Source of the DNA: FCB group bacterium
GTDB lineage: Bacteria > Zixibacteria > MSB-5A5 > GN15 > JAAZOE01
Assembly: GCA_024231695.1 (NCBI GenBank)
Contig: JAAEQF010000587.1
Span: 1 to 64,000, forward strand
Direction of reading: 5' to 3'
DNA: 64,000 nt
Shown here: in pieces, positions 3,046 to 63,066 of the stretch
How positions within the stretch are numbered: the stretch's first letter is position 1
How the letters are laid out: every line of letters starts with the position of its first letter
Translations under genes and position numbers: made by a program
Notes under the pieces: generated by a model
Told to the model about the DNA's origin: nothing
What the model saw: only the letters and a program-made list of their open reading frames with translations
Database searches by the model: none

Positions 3046-4114
3046 AGCCAAAAAGAAAAAGAAGAAGACTATAGAAGTAAAACGTTGCGTTGAGATGTTT
3101 ACAGATGAGGTGTCCATGGTGACGCGCGGTGCGAATGGCCACCGAAAGTTTTTGATGGTAAAATCTGACGGTGAAGTTGGTCAGATCATTGTAGATAATG
3201 TCGAAAAATCTGTGCCAGCAAAAGATGCTTCTCGTGATTCCAAGGATAAGGCTCAAAAGGCAAGATCCAAAAAATATGGGATAGAAGTGCTCCCCAAAAA
3301 TAGCAATTTGAGTTATCCGGCAAACGCGCCATCGACAGAGCGGTTGTATGGCGACCCGGTGAACCTGAAATATCCATTGGCCTACGATGGGGCAACTAAG
3401 CCAGACGAAGGCCGAACCAAAAATGCGATTTCGCGATTTAAGGGTAACTATAAACAGTACTCTAAGAAAGCGAGTCAAGCTCGAATTTACGAACGAATAG
3501 TGAGGGCTGCCATGGGCGTAGGTATCAAAGTAAATTTCGATCCAAAAGATCCAATTGATTCAAAACTTCCGGGAGACATTAAATCTCGGATAAAAAAAGA
3601 CGATTCTAACGGTCCCGACACGGACCCCGCAGGCACGGATTCAACTGCAGCGGACGACGAGAAAGGTTTTGAAGTATCGGACTGGCTCCAAGGACTATCC
3701 AAGTCTGCGGAAACCCCGGACGGTGACGACAACTGGCTTGCCTCGATTAGTTCCGCTTTGGACCCCGTAGACGAGGGCCAGGCACCAGAGGAAGACTTGA
3801 AGAAAGAAGATAGTTCTTCGTCGGAGGAAGAAAAAGAACGAGCCGAGAGCTCAGAGGAGCCGGTCAAAAAATCCGATGACGAGCCAAACAAAAACAGTGC
3901 CTTGGAAAAACTCGAAAAAGAGCTCAAGGCGAAAAATGCCCAGATTGACGATCTGACAAAGTCGGTGCGAAGCATGAAGGCGGATATTGCCAGGCATTCG
4001 ACGCATATTGATTCGCCGAGGACGATGTTACCTGGTGCCGAAAACACCAAGGAGGACAGCGATCCATATGCCGAACGCAATAGCAGTATCGATTTGAGCC
4101 CCGCTCTCGACTAG
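3035..4114 (+). CDS. scaffold-like / protease-associated protein
   Basis: 'DEVSMVTRGANGHRKFLMVKS' motif typical of prohead protease/scaffold context; acidic and coiled-coil C-terminus; directly upstream of the capsid gene. Confidence 0.6.
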   Translation: MAIRAKKKKKKTIEVKRCVEMFTDEVSMVTRGANGHRKFLMVKSDGEVGQIIVDNVEKSVPAKDASRDSKDKAQKARSKKYGIEVLPKNSNLSYPANAPSTERLYGDPVNLKYPLAYDGATKPDEGRTKNAISRFKGNYKQYSKKASQARIYERIVRAAMGVGIKVNFDPKDPIDSKLPGDIKSRIKKDDSNGPDTDPAGTDSTAADDEKGFEVSDWLQGLSKSAETPDGDDNWLASISSALDPVDEGQAPEEDLKKEDSSSSEEEKERAESSEEPVKKSDDEPNKNSALEKLEKELKAKNAQIDDLTKSVRSMKADIARHSTHIDSPRTMLPGAENTKEDSDPYAERNSSIDLSPALD

Positions 4115-5805: not shown

Positions 5806-5891
5806 AACTCCTTGGGGGGTTGAATGGTGAAGTCTTTGCCCCGAAGCGACCATTCAGCCCCCCATTATATTAGACTTTGGGGCAAGGAGTT
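5806..5891 (+). promoter_or_regulatory. large RNA hairpin that can sequester the Shine-Dalgarno of the next gene
   Basis: AACTCCTT 5806-5813 pairs with AAGGAGTT 5884-5891 (the SD); inside, GGGGGGTTGAATGGT 5814-5828 pairs with ACCATTCAGCCCCCC 5849-5863; ATG at 5897. Confidence 0.7.
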
Positions 5892-5896
5892 CTAAA

Positions 5897-6619
5897 ATGA
5901 ATGATAAAATTTACGCAGTTAGGCTAAAAGAGTACAACAAGGGCGCTGGACATCTGTTGCGAAACTGGATTGGTGCACGTTGGAAATTACATTTTGAGGC
6001 TGGAGAATCTACACCTAAACGGCCGTTTAGACCGTCTAAAATCCATGAGGTAACCAAAGAACAATATGATTACATTATGGGTCGAAGTGGTGAAGGTGTG
6101 CCGAACGTTCCGCAGCCGAGAAGCGCTGGAGTACAAGCTTTTCAAGGTTGGGTATTAGATTCCAGACAAGAATTGGTTGATATGGTCAACAAAGAAGCTG
6201 ATCAACGGGCTTCAAGAGGTGTGACTAGTGCGCGAGCACTTGTAATACTGAGGGAACCAATGCATGCAGCGCCCCCGGTTGAACCGGCCGAGGTGGTCGT
6301 GGATAAGGTGCCTGAACCGGCAGATCATGTTGCAGAAGACAAAACTGGAACATTCCTTCCGATAGATGTCAAAGAGGAACTATCCAAGGATAAACCAGCC
6401 GAACGACCGGCACCTATAGCACCTATATCAAAGCGTGAGGCGGCGAAGCAGTACAAGGCGATTAAAGACGGCAAGGTTGCGGATCCAACCGTAGAACAGG
6501 CACACGAACCCACCGGAGATGATGAAGGCGATTCCAAATCAAAAAAGGTGGAAGAAAAAAAACCGAAGGCGAAGAAAAAAAAAATAGGAGGGAGTAAGCG
6601 AAAGACCGTTAAAAAATAA
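5897..6619 (+). CDS. hypothetical protein with Lys-rich C-terminus
   Basis: 240 aa; C-terminal KKVEEKKPKAKKKKIGGSKRKTVKK. Confidence 0.65.
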   Translation: MNDKIYAVRLKEYNKGAGHLLRNWIGARWKLHFEAGESTPKRPFRPSKIHEVTKEQYDYIMGRSGEGVPNVPQPRSAGVQAFQGWVLDSRQELVDMVNKEADQRASRGVTSARALVILREPMHAAPPVEPAEVVVDKVPEPADHVAEDKTGTFLPIDVKEELSKDKPAERPAPIAPISKREAAKQYKAIKDGKVADPTVEQAHEPTGDDEGDSKSKKVEEKKPKAKKKKIGGSKRKTVKK

Positions 6620-40358: not shown

Positions 40359-41474
40359 TTAGCGAAAATCTACAAAAACATAATTGCCGTCGATGTGCAG
40401 TCCAATTTCCTGAAATTGAGAATCATTAGATTTAGGTGCCGACAATGCAAATCTGATTTCTCTAACACCAGTATAATCCACGTCGAACGTGTGATCGGAG
40501 TTTATCCATTTGTCCCAATACGGATCACATCGGGGAGGTGTTCCGGAGTCGGACCAAATCTCTATTTTGCCAAATTTTCCGTCAGGCCTTATTCCGTTTA
40601 GCCTTACTTCCATCGAAAAATCGTCCAACCTACCCTTGCTGCAGAACCACGTTCCGACTGTTACATTCATATTTCCAGAATCAAGTTGTTCTTCGGTGAA
40701 GTGGTCCAACAAATTAATGTATTGTACTAGTCCGCACGCGGTTCCGTTATTCGCGAACACCGCTCTACCGTCTGGGGCGTTTGGGTTATACGCTGATACG
40801 GTGAAACAATCATCAAAGACTCCTTTTACGGTCCAGTTGTCCATCCCTTGTTCGGCTCCGGGGTTCATGAGTAGATTCACGGGCGGCGGTATTTCCGTGT
40901 CGGTATCCGTATCGGTATCGGTATCCGTATCCGTGTCGGTATCGGTATCCGTATCAGTGTCGGTATCTGTATCTGTATCTGTATCTGTATCTGTATCTGT
41001 ATCTGTATCAGTATCCGTATCGGTATCCGAGTCTGTGTCGGTATCTGTGTCTGTATCGGTGTCGGAATCCGAATCAATATCTGTGTCAGTGTCAGTATCT
41101 GTGTCAGTATCAGTGTCAGTATCTGTGTCAGTGTCAGTATCTGTGTCAGTATCAGTATCTGTATCGGTGTCTGTGTCGACATCCGTATCCGTATCTGTAT
41201 CCGTGTCGGAATCCGTGTCGGTATCAGTATCTGTATCAGTGTCCGTATCGGTGTCCGCGTCCGCATCACTATCTGAATCACTATCGCCGTCAGAGTCACC
41301 ATCGGAGCCAGTGTCGACATCGATGTCGGTGTCACCTCCATTATCAATATTGTCAGCGTCAGAATCGAATTCAATATTTTTAGGTTCTACATAAAAAGCA
41401 TCATCGTAATCATGCACCGAACAACTCAACACCCAAGCGCATATCACTAATAAAAAAACATTTTTTCGTTTCAT
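40359..41474 (-). CDS. lipoprotein with long (DT)n tract and C-terminal beta-sandwich-like domain
   Basis: Start MKRKNVFLLVICAWVLSC (lipobox VLSC), SD ggagg; about 140 aa of DTDTDT/DSD repeats; C-terminus 'NLLMNPGAEQGMDNWTV...' resembles carbohydrate-binding jelly rolls. Confidence 0.8.
   Translation of the reverse strand: MKRKNVFLLVICAWVLSCSVHDYDDAFYVEPKNIEFDSDADNIDNGGDTDIDVDTGSDGDSDGDSDSDSDADADTDTDTDTDTDTDTDSDTDTDTDTDVDTDTDTDTDTDTDTDTDTDTDTDTDTDTDTDTDIDSDSDTDTDTDTDTDSDTDTDTDTDTDTDTDTDTDTDTDTDTDTDTDTDTDTDTDTDTDTEIPPPVNLLMNPGAEQGMDNWTVKGVFDDCFTVSAYNPNAPDGRAVFANNGTACGLVQYINLLDHFTEEQLDSGNMNVTVGTWFCSKGRLDDFSMEVRLNGIRPDGKFGKIEIWSDSGTPPRCDPYWDKWINSDHTFDVDYTGVREIRFALSAPKSNDSQFQEIGLHIDGNYVFVDFR
40895..41335 (-). 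repeat. degenerate hexanucleotide minisatellite encoding (Asp-Thr)n
   Basis: Runs of gtatcN/gtgtcN on the + strand. Confidence 0.9.
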
Positions 41475-41498
41475 GGTTCCTCCATAGCTACTATATAA

Positions 41499-41526
41499 AA
41501 AATAATCCATGAAGGTCAGGTGTCAA
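41499..41526 (-). promoter_or_regulatory. sigma70-like promoter for the lipoprotein gene
   Basis: TTGACA (41521-41526, minus) - 16 nt - TATTTT (41499-41504, minus). Confidence 0.55.
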
Positions 41527-43638: not shown

Positions 43639-44772
43639 ATGGTAGACACACAAATTTATACTCCGGAATCTTTAGCAACAAATGGACATTCCGACACGGG
43701 CGAAATCATGAGCGCTCAGGGTGGAATGGACGTAGAATCTAGCCGAGCGATTGCAAGCGTTCAAGCATCGATGGTGATGGCGGCAAAGAGGCCTCGGCGG
43801 GAAATCGCTTCTTGGAAAAGAATGAAGGCTGCCTGTAGCCGTCTTCGTTTTGCAGAAAAGGCATTGTTTGCATATCGGCGTGGCGGGACGCTTGTTTCTG
43901 GTCCAACGATTCGCTTGGCAGAATCCCTTGCCTCGGCCTGGGGAAATCTCGATATGGGGTTTAAGGTTATTGAAAAGCTTGAAGGTGGTCACCTTGTCCA
44001 AGTTTTCTGCCATGATCTCGAATCGAATTTGAGGGTATCAAGAGAACTCATTATAAGCAAAAATAGATATATGGGCGGTGATCTATTGAAAGCAGAGCGG
44101 GACATCGCAGAAAATATTTCCTCGGTAGCTCAACGAAACGTAAGGAACGTCGTCCTTCAATGCTTGCCGGCGGATTTAGTAGAAGATGCGATCTCACAAT
44201 GCCAAAAAACAATGGCGAAAGGAGATGGCCGGCCGTTGCAAACACGCATTCGTGACGCCGTTGTAAGTTTTGAGGAGATAGGCATTAGTGTTGCGATGCT
44301 GGAGGATTTTCTGGGGCACAATATGGAAGCAACTGAACCGCTTGAGATCCCCAAATTGCAGGGCGCTTATCAATCGATCACATCAGGAATGGCAAAGCGA
44401 GAAGAGCTATTCAATATTGCTGCGGATCTACCGGCGCCGGTGGAAAAAAAGAAAAAAGTTCAAACCGTAGAGCCGAGCAAAACCGAAAAAAGCACCAACG
44501 ACAAAATACGAGACGCACTACAAGCAGAAAAAGAAGGGCGAACACCGTCCGGAAAAGATCCGTCAGCGCATGTGCCCACAACGGACGAGATTAATGAAGA
44601 AGAGTTGGTAGCAATTCAACAACGCGAGATGGAAGAATATGAAGCGGCACAATATGAGCGTGGACGGGGAAAAGAAGACAACAACGATAATGGTGAATTA
44701 CCACTCGATTACACACCAAAAACGGCAAGGAAACCACGGCAAGCCAGAGGCATGAAGACAAAGGGGGTGTGA
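43639..44772 (+). CDS. putative phage recombination/ssDNA-annealing-associated protein
   Basis: 'GGTLVSGPTIRLAESLASAWGNLDMGF...VFCHDLESNLRVSRELII...NVVLQCLPADLVEDAISQC' resembles a widespread phage family near RecB-like nucleases; function uncertain. Confidence 0.45.
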   Translation: MVDTQIYTPESLATNGHSDTGEIMSAQGGMDVESSRAIASVQASMVMAAKRPRREIASWKRMKAACSRLRFAEKALFAYRRGGTLVSGPTIRLAESLASAWGNLDMGFKVIEKLEGGHLVQVFCHDLESNLRVSRELIISKNRYMGGDLLKAERDIAENISSVAQRNVRNVVLQCLPADLVEDAISQCQKTMAKGDGRPLQTRIRDAVVSFEEIGISVAMLEDFLGHNMEATEPLEIPKLQGAYQSITSGMAKREELFNIAADLPAPVEKKKKVQTVEPSKTEKSTNDKIRDALQAEKEGRTPSGKDPSAHVPTTDEINEEELVAIQQREMEEYEAAQYERGRGKEDNNDNGELPLDYTPKTARKPRQARGMKTKGV

Positions 44773-47873: not shown

Positions 47874-47901
47874 TTGACGGAAGTATCTGATTCGGTAATC
47901 T
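47874..47901 (+). promoter_or_regulatory. promoter candidate for the antirepressor leader
   Basis: TTGACG 47874-47879, 16-nt spacer, TAATCT 47896-47901. Confidence 0.45.
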
Positions 47902-47910
47902 AGAACAGTG

Positions 47911-48013
47911 CAGCCCGCAAAACTGCGCAACTTTGAAATTTTAAGATCTTCCGATGAGTTACCGAGTTTTCCCTACCTTTGCGGGCTGTACGTTGAGCTC
48001 GGTGGCTCATCGG
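47911..48013 (+). promoter_or_regulatory. structured 5' leader of the antirepressor with interleaved (ABA'B') stems
   Basis: A cagcccgcaaa 47911-47921 / A' tttgcgggctg 47978-47988; B ccgatgagttaccgag 47951-47966 / B' ctcggtggctcatcgg 47998-48013. Confidence 0.7.
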
Positions 48014-48041
48014 AGGATCCTATTTTTAAGGAGGTATTAAA

Positions 48042-48920
48042 ATGACAGACATTGTAAAATTCAATTTCTATGGTGATGAGCTTGAATGTGTGAAGGACGA
48101 CGAGGATCTTTGGGTCTCTGTCCGGCGGATGTGTGAACCACTTGGAATTGATCACGACAATCAACGCGTCAAGCTGAAAAAAAAATCTTGGGCACGCACG
48201 GTGCTAATCACCGCGCACGATGCAAACAACCGAAAACAATCACAATTTTTTATTCATGTTGATAGTGTGCCAATGTGGTTGGCGACTATTGACGAAAAAC
48301 GCGTATCAGAACATGTTCAGCTTAAACTAATCAAGTTTCAACTCGAGGCTGCCAAAGCCTTGCGGGATCATTTCTTCGATCACAAGATTTCAATTCCAGA
48401 CAACCTCGAGGATGCTTTATTGCTGGCAGCGTCTCTTGAGGGCGAACGAAAGAAACTGAAGGCCCGCGTCGAAGCCGACCGGCCAAAGGTAGAGTTCGCC
48501 AAACGGATCGAGACATCGGAACAAACCTATTCATTGTCGGCGGCGTCCAAGGTGCTCAACAACGAAGGTATTGGATTCGGCCGTCAGCAGCTCTGCAACT
48601 TTCTTCGGTACATGGGGCACCTGTTCCGCAACTCAAGGAAAGAACTTGAGCCGATGCAGGATTGTATTGACCGAGGATATTTCGAATATAAATTTGGCGA
48701 ACGTTACGAATTCAAGAATAACGTTAAAACAGGTCGCAAGCTACGATATGGGGCGACAACGGTGACCGGCAAGGGGTTAGTGTGGATAAAAAGCCTCATG
48801 GAACGTTACCCGGACTTGGTTGATTCTGTGTTGAATCAGAGCGCTATCATCCACAAATCAGCGCATAAAAATCGTGAATGCCGAAGGGCTAGTATCCATT
48901 CTGTGAGAAAAAAACGTTGA
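48042..48920 (+). CDS. phage antirepressor (P22 AR N-like + KilAC-like)
   Basis: N-terminal 'YGDELECVKDDEDLWVSVRRMCEPLGIDHDNQRVKLKK'; C-terminal 'SLSAASKVLNNEGIGFGRQQLCNFLRYMGHLFRN...'; SD aaggagg. Confidence 0.8.
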   Translation: MTDIVKFNFYGDELECVKDDEDLWVSVRRMCEPLGIDHDNQRVKLKKKSWARTVLITAHDANNRKQSQFFIHVDSVPMWLATIDEKRVSEHVQLKLIKFQLEAAKALRDHFFDHKISIPDNLEDALLLAASLEGERKKLKARVEADRPKVEFAKRIETSEQTYSLSAASKVLNNEGIGFGRQQLCNFLRYMGHLFRNSRKELEPMQDCIDRGYFEYKFGERYEFKNNVKTGRKLRYGATTVTGKGLVWIKSLMERYPDLVDSVLNQSAIIHKSAHKNRECRRASIHSVRKKR

Positions 48921-48995: not shown

Positions 48996-49400
48996 ATGAA
49001 TGAATACATTTTTATTCCTACTTCGATTTTGGACTCTTCTGTATGGCAAGAACCACCTCATATCCGGTTAACGTGGATTACAATGATGTTGATGGAAAAC
49101 AAAAAAGGCGTTGTTGAGGCGTCAATACCAGGCCTTGCCAGGCGCGTAGGGGTTACCGTGGCAGAATGTATTGAGTCATTAGATTTTTTAAAAAATCCTG
49201 ACGAATACAATATTTCTAAGAACTTCGAAGGACGGCGAATAAAAGAAACGTCTGAGGGGTGGATTATTTTAGAACACGATAAACATTCTGCGAAGTTGCA
49301 AAAGCAACGAACCCAGAGTGCAGAAAGGGGCCGGCGTTTTCGTGAACGAAAAAAGGAACGTGAAAAAGAGCGAATGCAAAGTGGAAAGTGTGAAAAATGA
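48996..49400 (+). CDS. winged-helix-like replication-associated protein
   Basis: 'MNEYIFIPTSILDSSVWQEPPHIRLTWITMMLMENKKGVVEASIPGLARRVGVTVAECIESLDFL'; Lys/Arg/Glu-rich tail. Confidence 0.55.
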   Translation: MNEYIFIPTSILDSSVWQEPPHIRLTWITMMLMENKKGVVEASIPGLARRVGVTVAECIESLDFLKNPDEYNISKNFEGRRIKETSEGWIILEHDKHSAKLQKQRTQSAERGRRFRERKKEREKERMQSGKCEK

Positions 49401-50446
49401 GACCACCTTACACATGCGTATATCGCGAGATTTGGGATGATGAATCATTTTGGGTGATGTCAGAGATTGGAAGGCTGGTTTATTTTTACGTTTTAACAGC
49501 ACCTATGGGGAATGGATTAGGATGTTTTAAGGCCGGTATGGCCGCGATGATAGAGGAATCTAGAATTCCAGAAAAACGATTTGTGGAAGGGTTCAACGAA
49601 GGGTTGACGAAAGGGTTATTCAAATACGATAATCGGCACAGAGTAATTCTCATCCCTAAATATTTTGAACGAAATCCACCAATCAATCCGAATGGGATCG
49701 TAGCGATGAGTAAAGAGTATGTTAAAATTCCTGATTGTGGGCTTAAACATGAATGTTACCATATAGTTAGGGTATTTGTTGAGTCAAAAAGTGAAGGTTT
49801 CTCAATGCAATTTGAAAGCCGATTTGATGTACCTTCAGCGAACCCTTCGGTAAATGATTCGGCGAATGATTCAGCAAATGATTCGGGCAATGATTCGGGT
49901 AATCATTCAGCGAATGATTCGGCAAATGATTCAGGTAATCATTCGGGTAATGATTCGGCGAATCACCTGGTAACGTATTCCCCTTCCCCTTCCCCTTCCC
50001 TGTCCCCTTCCCTGTCCCCTTCCCTGTCCGATCCCCTGTCCGATCCCAATAAAAATATTAAAAAGAAAATTGCCGATTGTGACGCCGATTTTAATTTTTT
50101 CTGGGCAATTTACCCCAAAAAAGTAGGCAAGAAAGCAGCGATCAACGCGTGGAAAAAATCAAAAAAAGAAAAAAAGAAAAAAGATCGATTGCCAGACGCC
50201 AACACCGTTGTCGATACAATAAGAAACCAAATAGAAGCAAAAAAAGCTATCCGAGCAGCAGGGCAATTTGATGCAGAATGGCCCAATCCTGCCACATGGT
50301 TAAACGAAGGACGGTGGATGGATGAAATTAGCCCACCAGCAACGCAAATAGGTAGGGCTAGACAAAGCGTGGCTTTGAATCAAATAGAACAAGGAAAACA
50401 GGCTTTACAAGAAGCAAGAAGAAAGAGATTAAAACGTGACGAATGA
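49397..50446 (+). CDS. replication initiator / DnaD-like replisome organizer
   Basis: 'YREIWDDESFWVMSEIGRLVYFYVL' and C-terminal 'FWAIYPKKVGKKAAINAWKK...WPNPATWLNEGRWMDE' typical of phage replication proteins. Confidence 0.7.
   Translation: MRPPYTCVYREIWDDESFWVMSEIGRLVYFYVLTAPMGNGLGCFKAGMAAMIEESRIPEKRFVEGFNEGLTKGLFKYDNRHRVILIPKYFERNPPINPNGIVAMSKEYVKIPDCGLKHECYHIVRVFVESKSEGFSMQFESRFDVPSANPSVNDSANDSANDSGNDSGNHSANDSANDSGNHSGNDSANHLVTYSPSPSPSLSPSLSPSLSDPLSDPNKNIKKKIADCDADFNFFWAIYPKKVGKKAAINAWKKSKKEKKKKDRLPDANTVVDTIRNQIEAKKAIRAAGQFDAEWPNPATWLNEGRWMDEISPPATQIGRARQSVALNQIEQGKQALQEARRKRLKRDE
49852..50045 (+). repeat. low-complexity coding repeats (NDSAND/SGNHS then SPSLSPSLS)
   Basis: About 12-bp units gattcggSNaat followed by ccccttccctgt units. 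Confidence 0.85.
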
Positions 50447-51254: not shown

Positions 51255-52261
51255 AATTTAACGAATTTTACGATGCATCAAAAAAATTTATCGACCCTAG
51301 AATACGGGTCAAATACAAAGAAGAAAGCAAATTTTGGAAGTTGTTTCCCTTAAAAATGCGGTCATATTGGACCACGTTGGGAAAAACCATCTGGGCACCA
51401 AATAGGGAACGCGTTTTGAGTCCAAACCGGGTTGCGTCTGCGGTTGCCGTGTATCTACACGAATGCCGGCACGTGGCCGACTCGTTGGACCGTCCAATTA
51501 TGTATTATATTGATTACTGCTTCCCGCAAATTCTGGCGCCGTTTTTGGCAATCGCTGCGGTTGTACTACACCTCGTTTTCGATATCCCTTGGCACCTCGG
51601 TTGGAGCCTTGGGGCGTCATGCATTGCATTATTTCCGTGGCCATCTTCTACCAGGTTAAATATTGAGGATCATGCTTATGCAATAAGCACATGGATTAGG
51701 TTTAGAAGATACAAGAATTTTGATGATCCAAAGCTCATTGCTGAGGCGACGGAATCACTATCAAAGGTCATAAATTCCTGGGTTTATTACAAGATGACGT
51801 GGAGGAATAAGACTGCGGATATTGAAGCGAAAGAAATCATAATTAAAGCGGTAGGTTGGTGCAGAGAAGAAAGACATGGATTGTTTTATCCAGATCCATT
51901 TGAAAATGCCGATTTAAACGGCACTTTAGTAAAATTATTGGATGAACCATTTTCTACAACATGGTATCCGCGCTCAATTCGCGACTTACATGGATTGTTT
52001 TATCCAGATCCATTTGAAAATGCCGATTTAAACGGCACCTTAGTAAAATTATTGGATGAACCATTTTCTACAACATGGTATCCGCGCTCAATTCGCGACT
52101 TAGATCCGGCGATACCTGCCGATGTTGCCCGGGTAGTAGGCGGCTACATGTTGGCAATAGACGAACAGGATGAAAAACCAACGATTGAGGCCAAAGGGTT
52201 TGGGGTATCCGTCAACACGGCCAGACGTGGGATCAACTTCAAGAAAGGTAGTAAAAAATGA
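51251..52261 (+). CDS. membrane protein with HExxH zinc-metallopeptidase-like motif
   Basis: 'VYLHECRHVADS' followed by hydrophobic segments 'ILAPFLAIAAVVLHLVF' and 'GWSLGASCIALFPW'. Confidence 0.6.
   Translation: MKFNEFYDASKKFIDPRIRVKYKEESKFWKLFPLKMRSYWTTLGKTIWAPNRERVLSPNRVASAVAVYLHECRHVADSLDRPIMYYIDYCFPQILAPFLAIAAVVLHLVFDIPWHLGWSLGASCIALFPWPSSTRLNIEDHAYAISTWIRFRRYKNFDDPKLIAEATESLSKVINSWVYYKMTWRNKTADIEAKEIIIKAVGWCREERHGLFYPDPFENADLNGTLVKLLDEPFSTTWYPRSIRDLHGLFYPDPFENADLNGTLVKLLDEPFSTTWYPRSIRDLDPAIPADVARVVGGYMLAIDEQDEKPTIEAKGFGVSVNTARRGINFKKGSKK
51875..52102 (+). repeat. two-copy near-identical 114-bp tandem duplication
   Basis: Copies start at 51875 and 51989; one difference noticed (cactttagt vs caccttagt). 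Confidence 0.95.
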
Positions 52262-52932
52262 AACGGAAATTGAAGAAATTAGAATTGATAAGCTATTATA
52301 TCGTGGACGGTGAAAAGGTTACTGACAGACCGGACAGCGAGGATGAAATTTATCATTACGTCGGTCCTGCGTCTCCGACACAGAATAAAATTATCGGTCC
52401 ACCGCCAGACGTGACTGGCGACCTGACCGGAGTGCGAGGCAATCTGAGAGGTGTATACGGCGATTTAACGGGATTGTCCGGCGACCTGACCGATATAATG
52501 GGCAACCTAACTAATGTGACGGGAGACCTAACCGGTGTATCCGGCGACCTGACCGACGTGTCTGGCGATCTGACCGACGTGTCTGGCGACCTAGGCGGCG
52601 TGAGAGGAAAAATTGACGGCTTACGAGGTCACTTAATAGCAATGTCTGGAGACATAACTGATGTGTGGGGTTCCGTAAACGGAGTTTCAGGAAATATGTC
52701 AGGATTGTCCGGCGACCTGAATCTAGTTCACGGAGACATGACTAACGTCCGTGGCGACCTAACCGGTGTATCCGGTGACCTAACCGACGTGTCTGGCGAT
52801 CTAACCAATGTGCGTGGCGACATGGCCAGAATGCGTGGCAACTTGACCGGTGTGTTCGGCGATATTAACGAGTGCGATATTACCAATGAAGAACGTAGAA
52901 AAAGCATAAATATCGAGGACTTGTTGAAGTGA
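52258..52932 (+). CDS. heptad-repeat (GDLTxVS) protein, solenoid-like
   Basis: 22 consecutive 7-aa units from 52417 to 52878 without register break. Confidence 0.8.
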   Translation: MKRKLKKLELISYYIVDGEKVTDRPDSEDEIYHYVGPASPTQNKIIGPPPDVTGDLTGVRGNLRGVYGDLTGLSGDLTDIMGNLTNVTGDLTGVSGDLTDVSGDLTDVSGDLGGVRGKIDGLRGHLIAMSGDITDVWGSVNGVSGNMSGLSGDLNLVHGDMTNVRGDLTGVSGDLTDVSGDLTNVRGDMARMRGNLTGVFGDINECDITNEERRKSINIEDLLK

Positions 52933-62240: not shown

Positions 62241-63066
62241 ATATCAACCGGACGTAAACCACGATAACAGCATCGTATTTTTTGGCCAACTTTTTGACAT
62301 CGGTGTCAGGGTGGTAAAATGGTACGAGTACCGTGGTTTAAACGGATACTTGAAGAAAAAGAAGGTCATTCGTGAGGAGGATCGGAAAACAGGAAAAATG
62401 AAGACCGTAAGGGTCATCAAGGGGAAGCGATACGGCGGAAGGTTTCCGCGTACCGGGCGCAAGGCGGTAGATATCAGGCAGTTCATGATCCACCACACTG
62501 GAGGGTACTTACCCGGTGTGTGTTTCAACACTCTCCACAACGAGCGCCGTCTATCGGTACAATTTATCCAGGCCGACAACGGAACTATTTATCAAACCAT
62601 GGATGCCAAAGAAATCGCCTGGCATGGTGGGAAACAAAACAGGTGTTCGATTGGTGTGGAGTGCTGCTTGTATCCGCGTGCGTTGAGAAACCCAGAAGCG
62701 TATAGGCCAGAGAAGTGCCGGCGTCTTGGGTTGACACCGCATGAAACAGGGAATGTGTACACCCAGGGAAAACATAGGACTGTGTTCATGATGCCTAACA
62801 ACCAGGTGGAGGCATTGGCACATCTAGCCGCTGGCGTGTGGTTTGCTCGTAACAAAGTCGCTGGGTTTATCAATAGAGCTCCAGGCTTTCCAACTCGTGT
62901 AGACGAGGTCCTACCAGATCCGGATTTCGATACTAAATACCGAAAACATAATGGATTGGTCATCCACGCCAATGTTGCCCCTAAAAAATGGGATGCAACG
63001 GGGCTAGACTTGGAACCATTTGAGGATCGAGTCGGCGATATTTATTACTCGATGAAAGCAGAATAA
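62215..63066 (+). CDS. N-acetylmuramoyl-L-alanine amidase endolysin (Amidase_2-like)
   Basis: 'RQFMIHHTGGYLPGVCFNTLHNERRLSVQFIQADNGTIYQTMDAKEIAWHGGKQNRCSIGVECC'. Confidence 0.8.
   Translation: MVETYPVNEYQPDVNHDNSIVFFGQLFDIGVRVVKWYEYRGLNGYLKKKKVIREEDRKTGKMKTVRVIKGKRYGGRFPRTGRKAVDIRQFMIHHTGGYLPGVCFNTLHNERRLSVQFIQADNGTIYQTMDAKEIAWHGGKQNRCSIGVECCLYPRALRNPEAYRPEKCRRLGLTPHETGNVYTQGKHRTVFMMPNNQVEALAHLAAGVWFARNKVAGFINRAPGFPTRVDEVLPDPDFDTKYRKHNGLVIHANVAPKKWDATGLDLEPFEDRVGDIYYSMKAE

Follow-up and report, generated by a model that had tools for sequence, protein, structure and literature searches.

We found that the leader of a phage operon, at positions 47908-48019 of the window (the whole stretch of 64,000 nucleotides that was analysed), can form two long helices whose arms follow each other in the crossed order A-B-A'-B'. 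Judged from the nucleotide sequence, the feature is real and is most simply a pseudoknot. The crossed layout recurs, with different sequences, at the corresponding position of two distant relatives, which argues for a real uncatalogued regulatory RNA; no family of Rfam 15 scored above its gathering score in the leader, in keeping with the preliminary description, which had taken it for an undescribed structured leader RNA. We propose, tentatively and at just under even confidence, that the element acts in cis as a 5'-terminal regulatory RNA which gates the mRNA of the early/replication operon.

Position and pairing of the window leader

A promoter-like sequence, TTGACG-N16-TAATCT, is present on the forward strand at 47874-47901 (TTGACG at 47874-47879, TAATCT at 47896-47901), with 16 nt between the two elements as previously described. 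Its -10 element is weak and matches the consensus at only three of six bases, which explains why a simple promoter scan did not report it. The 5' arm of stem A (GTGCAGCCCGCAAA, 47908-47921), whose first bases are GTGCA, is located at the predicted +1; transcription probably starts at this arm, in agreement with the earlier proposal that the transcript begins at stem A. Further along the same strand come a 23-nt spacer (L1, 47922-47944) in which CUUUGAAA is able to pair with the start of the Shine-Dalgarno sequence (SD), the 5' arm of stem B (47945-47969), the 3' arm A' (47978-47991), which lies within the loop of hairpin B, and the 3' arm B' (47995-48019), 3 nt 3' of A'. The loops L2 and L3 have 8 nt and 3 nt, respectively. 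A:A' (47908-47921 with 47978-47991) consists of 14 continuous pairs with one G-U, and B:B' (47945-47969 with 47995-48019) of 25 continuous pairs with five G-U; both helices had been understated in the preliminary description, where A:A' was given as 11 bp. The end of B' is 8 nt from the SD of the first gene (AAGGAGG, 48028-48034, forward strand) and 22 nt from the start codon of ant; the distance of about 14 nt given earlier was due to a shorter B'.

All the non-Watson-Crick pairs in both helices are G-U on the forward strand and A-C on the minus strand, and this sense-strand bias was counted in favour of an RNA-level pseudoknot. The predicted fold of the leader has an energy of -55.9 kcal/mol compared to -33.2 ± 3.9 kcal/mol in 200 shuffles (z of -5.88 for the sense strand), whereas the antisense strand is much weaker with a z of -3.80. 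B:B' is the strongest helix in the 64 kb window, and the crossed pair scored 34.8, the maximum being 26.8 in 20 whole-window shuffles and 26.2 in 1000 local shuffles. Energies calculated for the duplexes alone are -25 kcal/mol for A:A' and -43 kcal/mol for B:B' and favour, in this model, the formation of both helices. The leader had been described as either a pseudoknot or two mutually exclusive hairpins: the pseudoknot stands as a possible form, but the exclusivity is not imposed by sequence since the two helices use different bases, and a pseudoknot is the only form in which both can be present at once.

A 45-codon ORF with a GTG start (47908-48045) spans the leader and overlaps the start of ant by ATGA. 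It has no SD, and a coding explanation of the region through this ORF is unsupported.

The first gene 3' of the leader, ant (48042-48920, forward strand), codes for a 292-aa antirepressor with P22_AR_N and ANT/KilAC domains (Pfam, 9.7e-25 and 1.9e-14; PHROG anti-repressor Ant). Two genes on from it, on the same strand, is rep (49397-50446), coding for a phage O-like replication initiation protein according to PHROGs, and same-strand genes continue downstream of the leader. The window belongs to a 92.7-kb contig with capsid, tail and baseplate genes, read from its sequence as a phage binned into the draft genome. No tyrosine or serine integrase/recombinase was found on this contig, so that a temperate life is not established and the lysis-lysogeny role first given to the leader is unproven. 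Homologs of ant with its leader were absent from the genome-contig collection and from 99 relative genomes, and the phage, plasmid and viral-contig collections gave only distant P22_AR_N or KilAC matches. Capsid homologs were likewise absent from the genome-contig collection, and a search for rep in 133 genomes of the phylum returned its own copy only. Elsewhere in the draft genome, G000:C591:71423-71758 codes for a protein distantly homologous (29%) to the rep product. Two other proteins of the window were recorded: one of GDLTxVxG repeats (52258-52932) that weakly matches a family of ice-binding beta-rolls, and a 383-aa protein on the minus strand (40359-41510) with a sub-threshold match to a eukaryotic F-box associated region and no PHROG.

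Crossed leaders in related phages

Relatives were retrieved with rep as bait, and all of them, L034 (93.5-kb contig, G106), L035 (113.8-kb contig, G107) and L032 (86-kb contig, G105), have related capsids. The rep gene is common to all relatives 3' of the leader, and the first 128 aa of its product are 59-63% identical. In L034 and L035, the A-B-A'-B' order was found directly 3' of a TTGAC promoter and ahead of the operon's first gene, with crossed helices as strong as those of the window. In L034, stem A pairs 3699-3712 with 3764-3777 and stem B pairs 3735-3748 with 3777-3790; in L035, stem A (18 bp with one bulge) pairs 3864-3882 with 3939-3956 and stem B pairs 3905-3920 with 3957-3972. The three leaders thus have a common layout, namely a stem A of 14-18 bp, a strong stem B, an A' arm abutting B' and an unchanged location with respect to the rep operon. 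The spacing is given here in the order window, L034 and L035: the A-to-B spacer is 23, 22 and 22 nt, L3 is 3, -1 and 0, the distance from B' to the start codon is 22, 33 and 28 nt, and that from TTGAC to the GTGCA at the start of A is 34, 33 and 34 nt. GTGCA opens the A region in all three leaders and the other arm sequence is entirely different; between the window and L034, 6 of the 14 A pairs are changed on both sides (by eye).

The preliminary description had looked to homologous leaders for structural conservation; when this was tested, the two relatives were found to share the architecture with covarying sequence, an outcome that favours that description on this point. The covariation case comprises three strong sequences whose B arms resist alignment, which precludes a formal covariation statistic, and the argument is one of architecture, synteny and shuffles. 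At each of the three syntenic loci the crossed helices beat 1000 of 1000 local shuffles, none of which reached the score, and this comparison across loci refutes chance as their source, to which we give next to no probability. Moreover, when 484,328 bp from five related phage genomes were scanned on both strands for crossed pairs with a score of 32 or more and a span of up to 110 nt, only the three leaders and one further element (window 5813-5888) were found; the L034 leader was detected on both strands and the L035 leader via its complementary strand.

The gene served by the leader is not constant. The leader is followed by ant in the window, by a different, small ORF of about 55 codons in L034 and by rep in L035, so that it is to be assigned to the early/replication operon and not to ant alone, and its first designation as a leader of the antirepressor is not supported. 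The leaders of other P22_AR_N antirepressors (L005-L008) showed only short crossed helices, unlike the window leader. The crossed-stem module is absent from L032 at the same locus. There, the flanks are 86-91% identical to those of L034 on both sides of an exchanged block, while L034 3226-3806 (upstream ORF, promoter and leader) and L032 3474-3806 are unrelated in sequence up to the SD; this block replacement indicates that the leader module is exchangeable. A capsid relative syntenic with the window contig (G103, 95 kb), in which ant was not found, has at this locus only a weak version: a hairpin of 27 bp whose loop can form 6 G-C pairs with a strand upstream, a pairing that lacks significance (460 of 1000 shuffles).

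Some other structures were observed in G103. The hairpin (L033, 3844-3959) lies before rep with ACAGGTGC as competing upstream strand, and the L033 promoter is covered by a perfect dyad, GTGTAgatTACAC. In L024 17-102 (G103 62917-63002), a 16-bp hairpin has a loop, CCCGTGCC, that can pair with an upstream GGCAC(A)GGG; it is not significant in shuffles and precedes an ORF that is HNH-like by eye. Both of these G103 leaders resemble the crossed layout on visual inspection, without significance.

The further element, next best crossed pair in the 64 kb, is a second A-B-A'-B' leader on the forward strand (5813-5888), conserved with compensatory changes and located 8 nt before the ORF 5897-6619, near the capsid gene. 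It is formed by helices of 16 bp (5813-5828 with 5849-5864) and 14 bp (5833-5846 with 5875-5888), and its last arm, B' (5875-5888), contains the SD of the ORF (AAGGA); here a pseudoknot would hide the SD directly. The same layout was found in the capsid relatives L016 (identical in L017-L019), L030 and L020, each of which beats 400 of 400 shuffles. This leader covaries in four sequences, the window and three further ones, with pairs that vary on both sides; for example, the inner part of the B arm reads GAAG/CTTT in the window, to which TGTG/CACA corresponds in L020. An outer helix, AACTCCTT:AAGGAGTT (window 5806-5896), also covers the SD of the second leader.

Proposed mode of action and alternative readings

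In the cis-acting reading, the RNA would fold during transcription, A:A' forming first and B:B' once B' emerges. The resulting pseudoknot would border the ribosome footprint on its upstream side, where it could gate ribosome loading and/or mRNA stability for the operon, probably in concert with an RNA-binding partner and in a manner broadly comparable to T4 gene 32 and its 5'-terminal pseudoknot operator; the first gene served would be ant here and the small ORF or rep in the relatives. The varying first gene fits a role at the transcript level as well as a translational one. Partition functions showed that SD accessibility depends on the fold in the window, where B:B' is accompanied by a weak helix to AAGG, with no consistent change in L034 and L035. 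Since this accessibility is not consistently changed, an effect on expression is what we infer, and SD locking as a conserved mechanism was rejected because of the inconsistency across the three leaders. An intrinsic-terminator-like U-run 3' of B' was found in the window and is absent from the relatives, for which reason a conserved role as intrinsic terminator was also rejected.

We regard as unlikely that the leader is a trans-acting antisense or immunity RNA of the P1 C4 or P4 CI kind, whose released A-B half would pair with the A'-B' half of either its own or an incoming transcript and turn off the early operon. The near-perfect complementarity of the arms and their complete difference between relatives are what immunity specificity predicts, the element stands between promoter and antirepressor like c4 in P1, and between L032 and L034 the leader block has been swapped as a whole, up to the SD. 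However, the A-B-A'-B' order differs from the P1 order b'-a'-a2-b2, a match to the Rfam C4 family is absent, the arms would pair at once in cis, no processing site is known and the relatives have the leader without ant. Within its own genome, no other site complemented A or B above the level of shuffles, and no sigma-70-like minus-strand promoter was seen in the four leaders, a search restricted to this promoter type; cis action is therefore the simplest view. One further sequence resembling B' with 3 mismatches, CTCGGTAGCTCAACGAAA, occurs on the forward strand at window 44121-44138 within the ORF 43639-44772, and is not above chance.

A switch without pseudoknot, in which two alternative hairpins would be under kinetic or protein control as in an attenuator, also seems improbable. 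A nested folding model does give A:A' as the best structure until B' is transcribed and B:B' afterwards, replacing it, and in the window the B:B' form puts CUUUGAAA on the SD. But the helices have no common bases (1 nt in L034), so the topology alone would make them exclusive, the SD effect is not conserved and the relatives lack the U-run after B'. A pseudoknot fits better than exclusive hairpins, given the absence of shared bases apart from the one in L034, the constant spacer and the A' arm abutting B'.

The folded leader might instead act as an RNA antiterminator like HK022 put, binding the elongating RNA polymerase and carrying it past terminators. Its position immediately 3' of the predicted early promoter, the varying first gene, which points to action on the transcript and not on one gene, and the downstream genes on the same strand would all suit such a role. 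We nevertheless consider it rather doubtful, as put consists of two plain stem-loops sharing sequence (PMC9378689), whereas here the stems are crossed and the leader sequences have only GTGCA in common.

More speculative, with a low probability, is a phage immunity RNA class, a hypervariable A-B/A'-B' set at the +1 of the replication operon in which A-B would silence only the matching A'-B'; if true, RNA arms and not a repressor protein would define immunity. Inverted repeats acting at the DNA level, as repressor operators or replication sites incidentally transcribed, are very unlikely: the promoter and the replication gene are nearby and GATTcggtAATC forms an imperfect dyad over the window -10, but the sense-strand G-U bias, the crossed order at fixed spacing and the absence of arm repeats elsewhere beyond chance speak against them.

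Comparison with known regulatory RNAs

The C4 RNA of P1/P7 (RF01695) resembles the leader in its location between promoter and antirepressor operon, which applies to the window only, and in having two pairs of complementary segments. Its order, verified in P1, is nested (b'-a'-a2-b2) and not A-B-A'-B', and, unlike the window leader, it has 7-8 nt targets and folds on itself. The C4 covariance model, with P1 as positive control at 68.8 bits, gave no match in the leader even at an E of 10; membership in C4 is excluded by this model and by the segment order. P22 sar is a separate antisense transcript and P4 CI RNA has one sequence complementary to two sites; what they have in common with the present case is RNA control of an antirepressor or early operon.

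The ColIb-P9 repZ pseudoknot is a short pairing between a loop and the SD region, controlled by a counter-transcript; in the present leaders, no sigma-70-like counter-promoter was seen. As cited in PMC10724649, this pseudoknot leader of an IncI-alpha plasmid controls a replication initiator. HK022 putL is, like the present leaders, a structured RNA just 3' of an early promoter (here a predicted one). Its two stem-loops, of about 70 nt, have sequence in common and do not cross (PMC9378689), in contrast to the crossed stems and unrelated sequences of our leaders.

With the operator of T4 gene 32, the three A-B-A'-B' leaders share the location in a phage leader, the pseudoknot topology, the position 5' of the ribosome-binding site and a merely partial conservation among relatives (PMC535899). 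The T4 operator has about 28 nt and is bound by the encoded single-stranded DNA-binding protein, whereas the present element has about 112 nt with stems of 14 and 25 bp, and the next gene is ant, a small ORF or rep instead of such a repressor.

On its predicted structure, the element is a variant of the phage leader pseudoknot. Pseudoknot leaders were so far known singly, in phages and plasmids, while here the layout is kept at the predicted +1 of the replication operon in phages that are divergent, uncultivated and about 90-114 kb in size, with the arm sequences turning over. Together with the second, SD-containing leader before a capsid-adjacent gene of the window phage, this points to an uncatalogued layer of RNA control on early and late genes. 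Owing to their lack of sequence conservation, such leaders escape standard homology searches, and finding more of them would take topology-based scans. To our knowledge, it is the joining of a +1 location, long crossed stems and near-total sequence turnover that sets these leaders apart from each of the systems compared, of which T4 gene 32, P1 C4, HK022 put and ColIb-P9 repZ come closest.
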